This document shows positions 9,697-12,831 of a stretch of 38,711 bases of DNA, piece by piece. This DNA is from Halobacterium sp. CBA1126 (lineage in GTDB: Archaea; Halobacteriota; Halobacteria; Halobacteriales; Halobacteriaceae): assembly GCF_009741975.1 (NCBI RefSeq), contig NZ_WPCF01000011.1, positions 1 to 38,711 on the forward strand, written 5' to 3'. The stretch's first letter is position 1, and the number at the start of each line of letters is the position of its first letter. The notes beneath the pieces were generated by a model. It was not told the origin of the DNA, ran no database searches, and saw only the letters and a program-made list of their open reading frames with translations. The position numbers were made by a program, and so were the translations under genes.

Positions 9697-10551
9697 TCAG
9701 TCCAGTTTCTCGGCGGCGTCTTTCTCGACGAGCGGCTTCGCGTTCTCCTCGGGCAGGGTCACGACGTCCTCGGCTTCGAGCGTGTACGGGCGTTCGTCCA
9801 CGCCGAAAATCTCGCCGACGTCGTCGGTGACGCGCACCTTCGTCCGGGACACGTCGTCCTCGGAGTCCGCGGCGTCCTGCTCGTCGTCCGCCGCGTCGTC
9901 GCCAGTGACGCGTTCGAGGTCGTCGGCGGCTGCCTCCGGCGGTTCGGGGTCGGCGGGTACTTGGTCTGACTCGGGGGCGTCCTCCGCAGCGTCCGGCTCC
10001 GGGGTCGGCTCCTCGTCCGCGTCGTCGAGCCCGCCGCCCATCGCGGCCGCCGCGGACGAATCCTCGCCGGACGGTTCCGGCGCGGGGTCCGTCGGCGTCT
10101 CGTCGGCGGTGTCGCCGAGCGGCTCGGACGCGGCGTCGTCGAGGTCGGTACTCGACGGCTCGGCGTCGCCGGAGATGACGTCGAGGACGTGGCTCTTGTT
10201 CGCCTCGATGCGCTCGACGAGGTCGCCGTAGAGCGCGCGCTCCTCCTCGGTGAGCCCCTCCACGTCGTCGGGCATCCCCGCGGCCGCGAGGCTCGCCTGC
10301 TTGACGAGCTTCCCCATGCGGCGCTCGTAGATGGCCTCCGCGACCTGCTCGGCGGTCTCGATCTTGTCCGTGAGCTCCTGGACCTCGGGGTCGCCGAACG
10401 GGTCGTCGGCGGCGCTCGCGGCGGCCTCCCGCTGCTCTTTGAGGTCCGCGATGTACGCCGCGACGTCCCCGTAGAACGAGTCCCGGAGCTCCTGGAGGCC
10501 GTCGGTCGCGCGCTCGCGGGTCTGGGCCGCGCGTAGGTCTTCGAGGTTCAT
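9697..10551 (-). CDS. GINS complex subunit (Gins51/Sld5-type)
   Basis: A 284-aa replication factor. GINS bridges the MCM helicase and GAN/Cdc45 in the replisome. The N-terminal helical A domain (MNLEDLRAAQTRERAT, then YGDVAAYIADLKEQ) spans about residues 1-130. A long acidic, low-complexity linker follows (about 130-225, rich in D, E, P and A), and a C-terminal B domain (TKVRVTDDVGEIFGVDERPY) ends the protein. The linker is longer than in non-halophiles, as is usual in haloarchaea. Its ATG overlaps the TGA of priS, the standard haloarchaeal arrangement, so the two are co-translated. Confidence 0.88.
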   Translation of the reverse strand: MNLEDLRAAQTRERATDGLQELRDSFYGDVAAYIADLKEQREAAASAADDPFGDPEVQELTDKIETAEQVAEAIYERRMGKLVKQASLAAAGMPDDVEGLTEEERALYGDLVERIEANKSHVLDVISGDAEPSSTDLDDAASEPLGDTADETPTDPAPEPSGEDSSAAAAMGGGLDDADEEPTPEPDAAEDAPESDQVPADPEPPEAAADDLERVTGDDAADDEQDAADSEDDVSRTKVRVTDDVGEIFGVDERPYTLEAEDVVTLPEENAKPLVEKDAAEKLD

Positions 10552-11723
10552 TCTTTGGCTTTCTCCGCGGTGCCGCGGGCCATCAGGAAGACGCCCGCGT
10601 ACTCTGGGACCGAGACCACGCCCGGTCGCACCGTAAGCGTTTCCCCGAGCAGCTCCAGCGTGCGCTCCTCCTGCACGTCGACGGTGATCTCGTGGCCGAC
10701 GAACGTCTCGGGGACGGCGTCGACCAGCGGGTCGAAGTCGTCCAGCTGCTCGCGGGAGAGCCGCCGCACGCGCAGCCCGCTCCCGCCGTGCAGCGTCCCG
10801 GGCAGCCGAATCAGGCGGTTCGTGTCCGTCGTCACGGGCTCGTCGATGGGCGCGTTCTCCGCCTCGACGGTCTCTTCGACGTACTTCCGCGCGACCTTCA
10901 GGAACGCCGGGTGGACGTCGACGTTCCCGCGCTTGACCGCCTCGGTGTTGTTCGCGACGGCGTTGTAGATGGCGCGCGCGGACTTCTCCCCGACGCCCTC
11001 CATCTCGGCGAGGTACTCGACGGCGTCGTCCTCGCCGCGCTCGAGCAGGTCGTCGGCGAACTCACCGAGGCGCTCGGTGACCCGGCGCCCCCAGCCGCCG
11101 TCCGCGGGCAGCACGCGCTTGTTCGTCGGGTTCTTCAGCCCGAGCCCCTCGACGGTCTCCTCGCGCACGAGCGACTCGAGGTCGAGCTCGTTCCCCCGCA
11201 CGTAGTCCACGATTTCACGGCGCTGCTCGCGCTCGAGGTCGTGGACGCCCTCGTCGCGGACGTGGACGTGGTAGCCGCGGCCGCCCGAGAACGTCACCGT
11301 CAGGTCCTCGAACCCGAAGTCCCGTTCGAGGAAGTCGAGCAGCCGGTAGAGGGCGTCCTTGCACTTCGCGAGCATCTGCGCGTACGTGTCCTCGCCGAGG
11401 GTCACGCTCGGCAGGTGGTCGGCGTCCAGGTCGAACACCAAGTCCGAGCCCTGCCAGTGCTTCTGCTCCATCGTCGACGCACCCGGCGTCTCGTAGAACC
11501 CCGCCGAGAAGTAGACGTGACGGGGGCGCTCCCGCTCGAGGAACGCCTTCGTGTTCCCAAGGTCGAGCGTGGACTTGTGCCGGACCATCGTCGTGTCCGG
11601 CCCCGACGTCCACGGGATGTACCCCCACTCGCGGTCGTCGGCGCGCGGCGGGAGCTCGACCTCCGAGCGGCGGTAGAAGTCACCGAACCGCCCCCGGAGA
11701 TACGCGCGGGTCCGTTCCTCCAT
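10548..11723 (-). CDS. priS: DNA primase small (catalytic) subunit PriS
   Basis: A 391-aa archaeal/eukaryotic-type primase catalytic subunit that synthesises RNA primers with PriL. Visible features are the catalytic aspartates in FDLDAD (D98, D100), SGGRGYHVHV for nucleotide binding, KNPTNKRVLP, and the family block TDTNRLIRLPGTLHGGSGLRV. A helix-hairpin-helix-like stretch (YLAEMEGVGEKSARAIYNAV) sits mid-protein. The start at 11723 is supported by an AT-rich box (ggttttacc on the minus strand, 11751-11759) 28 bases upstream. It is the first gene of the priS-gins operon. Confidence 0.95.
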   Translation of the reverse strand: MEERTRAYLRGRFGDFYRRSEVELPPRADDREWGYIPWTSGPDTTMVRHKSTLDLGNTKAFLERERPRHVYFSAGFYETPGASTMEQKHWQGSDLVFDLDADHLPSVTLGEDTYAQMLAKCKDALYRLLDFLERDFGFEDLTVTFSGGRGYHVHVRDEGVHDLEREQRREIVDYVRGNELDLESLVREETVEGLGLKNPTNKRVLPADGGWGRRVTERLGEFADDLLERGEDDAVEYLAEMEGVGEKSARAIYNAVANNTEAVKRGNVDVHPAFLKVARKYVEETVEAENAPIDEPVTTDTNRLIRLPGTLHGGSGLRVRRLSREQLDDFDPLVDAVPETFVGHEITVDVQEERTLELLGETLTVRPGVVSVPEYAGVFLMARGTAEKAKE

Positions 11724-11815
11724 GTCGGGAAACGGGTACGCCGACCGCGGGTAAAACCGTGTCGTCTCTCTCGTCTGTGTGGGTTGGCTCGTCCCGACAG
11801 TAGTGCACCCGACTT

Positions 11816-12197
11816 CTCGAAAGCCCCGGTGCTGTCGCGGTCGCTCGCGGACATATCTGCTCGCTACGCTCGCAGATAGTGGCCCGCGAGACGACCAAGC
11901 AAGCGCGACAGCACCGCCCCGTTCAGTCCACTCGTCACCAGTTGGGCAGCCGGTAATCGGGCGGATTGAACGGGGCGATACTCTGGACGAAGGCAGGCGA
12001 CGCAAACACCGGAAGGAGCCCAGCTACTGAGGCGCGCAGCGAGCGCGAGGCCGACCAACGGGAGGTGGTTCGAGAAACGGCAGAGCCGTTTCTCGTCATG
12101 CCGAAAACCGAGGATTTTCGAGCACCTCGAACTGCTCGAACGGGGAACGTAGTGACCCGTGAGAGCCTCCCGAGTCCAGAGTAGCGGGGCTTTCGAG
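11816..12197. ncRNA. Candidate structured RNA or cruciform element, multi-branch fold, no known family
   Basis: This non-coding stretch contains nested perfect complementarities that build one closed structure. The outer arms are 11816-11827 with 12186-12197 (12 bp). Inside, in order, come 11828-11839 with 11904-11915 (12 bp), 11916-11925 with 11967-11976 (10 bp), and 11979-11988 with 12174-12183 (10 bp). The last encloses 12059-12065 with 12166-12172, and a hairpin 12071-12080 with 12086-12095. Successive helices abut with almost no unpaired bases at the junction. No RNase P, SRP or tRNA signature was found. The strand cannot be decided. It could be a stable RNA, a long 5' leader of priS, or a degenerate non-autonomous mobile element. 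Confidence 0.55.
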
Positions 12198-12264
12198 GAG
12201 ACTTCGACGTCGCTGTCGAAGCCGTAGCTACGCGAAAAGCGGACTACACGGTCAGACGCGAGAA
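12198..12264. repeat. Hairpin and palindrome downstream of the structured element
   Basis: 12202-12208 pairs with 12215-12221 (7 bp, 6-nt loop), immediately followed by the perfect palindrome cgtagctacg at 12223-12232. These may belong to the structured element or act as a terminator for the GNAT gene that ends at 12265. With 11724-11815, which holds only the priS promoter, they complete a 541-bp stretch without a credible gene. Confidence 0.4.
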
Positions 12265-12744
12265 CTACCGGCCGCGAAGCAGTTCCGAGATGCGGTCCCG
12301 GATGCGGGCGCGGTCGCCGAGCCGGAGGTAGTACGCGCCCTCGCCGTCCTCGTAGTAGTTGTCGATTTCGCGTTCGACGCTGAACCCGAGGTGTTCGTAG
12401 AAGGATACCGCGCTCTCGTTGCTCTGGCGGGCGTGACAGGACGCCTTCCCGGCGTCCTCGGTGACGCGCGCGACGAGGCGTTCGCCGTACCCCTCGCCGC
12501 GGAACTCGGGGGCGACCGCGAGAAACAGGATGTAGCCGTCCGACCGCGCCGCCGCGAAGCCGACCACGTCGTCGCCGTCGAGGAAGCAGTAGACCGTCGA
12601 GCGCCGGTAGGCGTTCGCGAAGAACCCCCGTCGCTGCTTGAGGAGGCCTTCGTCCTCGCGGATGCGTTCCTTGAGGTCCCACGCCTCGTCGAGGTGCTCG
12701 TCGCTCCCCGGCGGGACCACCCGCTCGTCGACTGTGACGCTCAC
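12265..12744 (-). CDS. GNAT family N-acetyltransferase
   Basis: A 159-aa acetyl-CoA-dependent acetyltransferase of the RimI-like group. The acetyl-CoA-binding motif A is visible as ILFLAVAPEFRGEGYGERLV (Q/RxxGxG/A type), and motif B as SNESAVSFYEHLGFSVE. The acceptor is unknown. A frame extends upstream to an ATG at 12807, but GTG at 12744 (VSVTVDERV) is chosen: the upstream 21 residues would be read from promoter DNA, and the TATA-like box at 12769-12776 lies 27 bases before the GTG. It is transcribed divergently from the DUF502 gene. Confidence 0.85.
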   Translation of the reverse strand: MSVTVDERVVPPGSDEHLDEAWDLKERIREDEGLLKQRRGFFANAYRRSTVYCFLDGDDVVGFAAARSDGYILFLAVAPEFRGEGYGERLVARVTEDAGKASCHARQSNESAVSFYEHLGFSVEREIDNYYEDGEGAYYLRLGDRARIRDRISELLRGR

Positions 12745-12768
12745 TGCGAGACGGTAGCAGGCCAGCGA

Positions 12769-12776
12769 ATATAATT
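12769..12776 (-). promoter_or_regulatory. TATA-like box of the GNAT gene
   Basis: The minus strand reads attatatt and is centred about 27 bases before the GTG at 12744. This spacing decides the start of the acetyltransferase and indicates a leaderless mRNA. Confidence 0.6.
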
Positions 12777-12831
12777 CCACCGTCGCCGGACGCCGAAACG
12801 CTTTCACGCCTCCTCGTCGTCTCCGGGAACG

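Follow-up and report, generated by a model that had tools for sequence, protein, structure and literature searches.

A family of palindromic repeats in haloarchaea

The 382-nt segment beside priS in Halobacterium sp. CBA1126 belongs to a family of dispersed, palindromic, intergenic DNA repeats that extends across the haloarchaea. The initial annotation of the window (the whole 38,711-nt stretch of DNA that was analysed) had offered three readings of this segment: an undescribed stable RNA, a regulatory leader of the primase operon and a folded non-autonomous mobile element. The last of these is the best supported, as the element is multi-copy, has no ORF, is polymorphic in its presence and ends in inverted repeats; the stable RNA and a leader specific to primase did not hold up. 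We therefore lean towards the view that these non-coding dispersed elements are probably non-autonomous mobile elements, similar to REP/REPIN/BIME sequences or to MITEs.

The element (11816..12197) is flanked by priS, the coding region of the small primase subunit, which reads away from it (10548..11723, - strand), and by a GNAT acetyltransferase-like ORF, which reads toward it (12265..12807, - strand; the name is that of the initial annotation and the family is putative). In the distance survey, a flank or 'leader' of 95 bp (11724..11818) connects the outer end with the priS start codon, and the flank at the other outer end (12198..12264) reaches to the GNAT stop codon. All four perfect long-range helices reported at the outset could be read directly off the sequence: an outer helix (11816-11827, CTCGAAAGCCCC, with 12186-12197, GGGGCTTTCGAG), a second (11828-11839, GGTGCTGTCGCG, with 11904-11915, CGCGACAGCACC), a third (11916-11925, GCCCCGTTCA, with 11967-11976, TGAACGGGGC) and a fourth (11979-11988, TACTCTGGAC, with 12174-12183, GTCCAGAGTA). 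They are nested as had been described, and the minimum-energy fold contains all of them. Folding was far better than that of dinucleotide-shuffled controls on both strands (z about -11). The minimum free energy of the + strand was -209.9 kcal/mol, whereas shuffled sequences averaged -150.3 (z -10.9; 0/100 shuffles as good), and that of the opposite strand was -218.1 kcal/mol (z -11.1). That the two strands fold equally well is suggestive of palindromic DNA and not of an RNA confined to one strand. As the initial annotation had stated, the element has no coding potential, with no coding region or ORF of note inside it. Rfam returned 0 families at the gathering score anywhere in the window, this segment included, and at the E-value threshold it gave only low-scoring matches in the segment.

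Extraction and alignment of 60 copies revealed a unit of about 110 nt with the organization GAAAGCCCC-[stem]-GCCCCTTTCAGTCC and an interior of type A or type B; the second stem strand S', complementary to S, lies between the interior and GCCCCTTTCAGTCC. The fold of each unit is a hairpin in which the stem varies and the internal loops are conserved. Some units stand alone, and others form inverted pairs across a short linker hairpin. Such a pair, unit A followed by unit B, makes up the window copy; it forms a cruciform-like four-way junction and has perfect terminal inverted repeats of 12 bp. Its type-A unit (11819..11933, + strand), placed by the alignment and a covariance model match of 126.7 bits, follows the formula GAAAGCCCC - stem S - CGCGGTCGCTCGC..CATATC..GATA..GACGACC.. 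- S' - GCCCC(G)TTCAGTCC, and its stem S/S' (GGTGCTGTCGCG / CGCGACAGCACC) occupies, together with the interior hairpin, 11828..11915 of the + strand in the fold. In the minimum-energy fold, a central stem (11916..11976) links both units and includes the linker hairpin with CCAGTTGGGCAGCCGGTAA. The type-B unit (11963..12195, - strand), inverted with respect to unit A, was delimited from homologous B units in other copies. Its hairpin carries extra DNA (approximately 12047..12162) compared with a 260-bp short form (1-231 then 348-382), and a nested double-hairpin insertion in it, GAGAAACGGCAGAGCCGTTTCTC-GTCATG-CCGAAAACCGAGGATTTTCGAG (about 12066..12124), is missing from copies L126, L135 and L171.

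The search for further copies that had been proposed was productive: by DNA search, we detected 16 matches to the element in its own genome and matches in 44 of 98 relatives. With the type-A covariance model (R1), the family was detected in 159 of 292 genomes of the class, which represent 58 of its 77 genera; numbers of copies per genome in this survey are 'at least' values, as no more than 12 candidates were scored in each genome. Halobacterium genomes contain 2-27 copies of a 14-mer box, GCCCCTTTCARTCC, versus 0 of the reversed control. In nearly all pairs two such boxes face each other 45-48 nt apart, and the central stem of the window copy has this same spacing, as in doublets of other genomes. 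Internal-loop motifs, such as CGCGGTCGCTCAGCGACATATC...GATAGGGGTCGCTGAGACGAC, are retained in copies from several families. No units were detected in H. salinarum DSM 3754. Type-A-like units are present on four haloarchaeal plasmids and no phage record matches, and a phage or plasmid element was rejected as an explanation. The 342-kb plasmid NZ_CP099994.1 of Halorussus salilacus carries a unit. The motif was not found in the literature searched, which comprised open-licence PMC papers, and the repeats are apparently undescribed before and apparently new as a family.

Near-identical recent copies were not found in the genome of the window. In one genome (G132), copies L272-L274, L299 and L300 have nearly identical stems and unrelated flanks, which suggests recent spread or gene conversion within that genome. 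In some other families, the sequence upstream contains tandem repeats of the unit's first part, at periods of 48, 51, 54 or 57. Tandem copies of the unit 5' part, with a locus-specific stem and a period that is a multiple of 3, were observed in L262, L263, L264, L286-L289, L291 and L293; those of L289 are exact triplicates.

Changes at orthologous sites

Presence of the element at a given site is polymorphic. The nearest relatives of priS come from Halobacterium, which places the genome in that genus. At the priS site, only a remnant is found in KA-4, the closest named priS relative, and a decayed copy in H. bonnevillei, whereas genome G009 has a full copy (L126) in the orientation opposite to that of the window. 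A regulatory leader of the primase operon is thus not a specific description of the element, which in close relatives is missing from the region upstream of priS or survives there as a remnant, and which stands upstream of many unrelated genes. Three sites traced through up to nine genomes were filled, empty or collapsed: copy L310 is reduced to its inverted-repeat ends, a hairpin is deleted in L306, and L314-L316 are empty promoter intervals. Pairs were also flipped at the same site (the window versus L126, and L128 versus L140), and type A was switched for type B in place (L141 versus L151/L173). No consistent target-site duplication was seen in 36 doublets, and orthologous sites were too diverged to provide a clean empty site. 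At orthologous places many copies have been retained with the sequence around them saturated, and this persistence suggests selection in place and not a purely selfish element.

It is possible to envisage how such an element would behave. A folded single strand or cruciform would be recognized via the conserved ends and internal loops by an enzyme, either of the host or of a mobile element, that acts in trans. Copies would survive by virtue of their position outside the core promoter and the gene 3' end, their arms might later be exchanged by recombination, and they would decay when replication deletes a hairpin. The family may also reveal a new enzyme acting on folded DNA.

Placement relative to genes

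Copies have a fixed placement beside gene boundaries. When genes were placed with a simple acidic-protein/GC3 ORF caller, used without curated annotation, the outer end preceded the start codon by 84-108 bp in about 60% of the 83 cases in which the gene reads away; in most of the 43 cases in which a gene reads toward the element, 40-60 bp separated the outer end from the stop codon. The window copy, with its outer end 95 bp from the priS start, fits the start-proximal class. Copies occur in tandem, divergent and convergent gene contexts; in the tandem ones, single units are antisense to the genes by 21 to 8 (a count that includes orthologous copies). Outside Halobacterium, the distances between elements and genes are broader.

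These observations raise another possibility, that the element is kept by the host as a cis-acting gene-boundary element (an insulator, a terminator or upstream regulatory DNA). The recurrent distances from starts and stops and the antisense excess of tandem single units support it, as do flanks at orthologous sites, whose length is the same to the nucleotide or differs by 3 in saturated sequence. However, presence at the same gene pair differs among species, and the element is found alike in tandem, divergent and convergent contexts, with no fixed gene set. On balance, we consider this explanation possible but not probable, and attach the same tentative weight to its proposal that folded DNA, or a transcript of the element, separates a gene from its upstream neighbor. 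Placement approximately 95 bp upstream of start codons, together with length-conserved, triplet-periodic flanks, raises the question of how gene boundaries are recognized in archaea.

The flanks have a rhythm of their own. After removal of similar flanks, a 3-nt periodicity phase-locked to the outer end was observed; in Halobacterium its power was 9.3, where phase shuffling reached no more than 2.6 (p at most 0.0005), and in other genera p was 0.0025. The tetranucleotide CTAG is rare overall (0.35 per kb). Of 119 flanks, 35 have it 40-55 nt outside the outer end, versus 2 in the control zone, and its distance from the outer end is 3n+1 in most. An outward translated peptide, which the periodicity and in-frame CTAG had suggested, was rejected: orthologous flanks have stops in every frame, the depletion of stops shows no frame specificity, and the lengths of the units are not divisible by 3. 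The left and right flanks of a pair were also compared, and they are not complementary beyond about 10-14 nt. The element could be a DNA-structure gene-boundary module, in which a fixed distance, counted in 3-nt steps, would separate the folded cruciform or single strand from the core promoter or stop codon, the flank sequence being nearly free and its length and 3-nt rhythm constrained. We regard this as quite unlikely; if true, it would imply a new archaeal protein, for instance one forming a filament with steps of 3 nt, that positions the element or makes use of it.

In this survey of the flanks of about 120 copies, CTAG marks the junction 40-55 nt outside the element (e.g., L134, L187, L220 and L222). 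Where the neighboring gene is directed toward the element, this CTAG is often the stop codon of that gene.

Pairing at the DNA level

Compensatory changes in homologues, which the initial annotation had named as a point to check, were found throughout the type-A structure. In an alignment of 92 matches, which was fitted to the structure but agrees with stems paired without the model, 95.8% of cells were paired and 37 of 39 pairs had changed on both sides. The covariation score was 0.421 versus 0.04-0.05 for slid alignments, and shuffled and slid controls were far lower.

This covariation is of a DNA type. Among 93 distinct outer stems, G:T and A:C mismatches were about equally rare (13 versus 15). 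In the whole type-A structure, 45 G:T and 38 A:C were counted, with 31 of the 45 G:T in one end pair; the G:U excess is confined to a single column, pair 29/176, and A:C is in excess without that pair. The SRP RNA of 13 Halobacterium genomes, analyzed as a control with an RNAalifold consensus that itself favors G-U, showed 54 G:T versus 10 A:C. With SRP RNA as the reference, the clear excess of G-U over A-C on the transcribed strand that marks a functional structured RNA was not observed. The similar numbers of G:T and A:C, unlike those in SRP RNA, argue for a DNA palindrome, and it is mainly as DNA that the pairing is kept, whether through selection on a folded strand or cruciform or through templated palindrome repair.

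It is still necessary to consider a structured non-coding RNA family (a small RNA or a 5'/3' UTR element), since covariation is very strong across genera and asymmetric internal loops are conserved across them. However, the wobble preference so clear in SRP RNA is missing on the + strand, the two strands fold equally well, units form inverted pairs and face either way with respect to genes, whether the context is tandem, divergent or convergent, and Rfam has no match. The wobble test, the equal folding of two strands and the two orientations led us to reject the stable RNA of the initial annotation as the best reading, and an RNA family of any of these kinds appears very unlikely; the surplus of G:U at pair 29/176, and of A:C once this pair is set aside, gives an RNA role some scope. 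It should be noted that covariation-based searches for non-coding RNA in haloarchaea can pick up DNA palindromes, and that the variable yet complementary stems of this class-wide family provide a natural data set for separating DNA-level from RNA-level conservation of structure.

Relation to known elements

REP/REPIN and MITE-type elements are well studied in bacteria, and comparable archaeal families are little described. In organization, the family resembles REP/BIME sequences and the transposase-free repeats of Haloquadratum, fully matching none of the groups considered here. As in REP/BIME/REPIN families, its units are intergenic, palindromic and multi-copy, and occur as singles and as inverted pairs at near-fixed spacing. 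However, the haloarchaeal unit is about 110 nt long and branched, with two swappable interiors, whereas a REP is a 20-40 bp hairpin; its foot is GAAAGCCCC/GCCCCTTTC and not GTAG/CGTC; and its stem sequence varies from copy to copy. MITEs are likewise short, non-coding and dispersed and have terminal inverted repeats, which in our family are perfect over 12 bp in the window and shared by doublets elsewhere; in contrast to MITEs, single units lack an inverted-repeat partner, and neither a partner transposon nor a clear target-site duplication was found. Integron attC sites are recognized as folded strands, their stem sequence being variable and their structure and ends conserved. The same combination of variable stem with conserved structure and ends makes the haloarchaeal units similar to attC by analogy only; no integrase, cassette array or R box was seen.

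Haloquadratum has transposase-free MITEs, PATEs and SMRs, and small repeats insert into palindromes there (PMC3119063). Both features are shared by our family. PATEs derive from IS200/605 elements, and their subterminal palindromes are related to IS605 ends. They are devoid of terminal inverted repeats, and members of an SMR type differ little from one another, with identity commonly over 95% (PMC3119063), whereas the haloarchaeal doublets have such repeats and their stems are highly variable; for the SMRs (HqIRS40-43/55) this comparison was made by description.

IS200-type Y1 transposases (PF01797), the kind to which RAYT/TnpA-REP belongs, gave no match in six carrier genomes (G000, G003, G005, G006, G008 and G012), which include that of the window, and are present in the unit-free H. 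salinarum (G007); dependence on them is thus unsupported. An autonomous element with a gene between two units was rejected for four candidate regions, L186-L189 (2-5 kb spacing), in which a comparison limited to ORFs revealed no shared transposase-sized gene and no consistent genes between facing units. Together, the Y1 search of the six carriers and the inspection of ORFs between facing units yielded no mobilizing protein. A degenerate, PATE-like IS200/IS605-type element, reduced to terminal palindromes and served by TnpA in trans, is most improbable: palindromic units near the termini, a non-coding length of several hundred bp and insertion of additional small repeats, for which Haloquadratum PATEs and SMRs offer a parallel (PMC3119063), would suit it, but inverted pairs carry the terminal inverted repeats that PATEs lack, Y1 presence does not follow unit presence, and no IS200/605 with unit ends was seen in a coarse comparison of the Y1 locus ends.

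Smaller repeats were observed within the units. Small hairpin-TCATG/TATGA-hairpin repeats are inserted in B hairpins of the window (12066-12124) and L126, as well as in L174-L177, and are found at unrelated intergenic positions in haloarchaea as well. Another small double-hairpin repeat, CGGAAGACTCACTGCGTTCGTCTTCCGACCCTCGCGAACG...CGTTCGCTCAGTCC, is located inside the CAGTCC tail in L129, L142, L150, L302, L312 and L319; with CAGTCC on both sides, it looks like a target-specific insertion with duplication.
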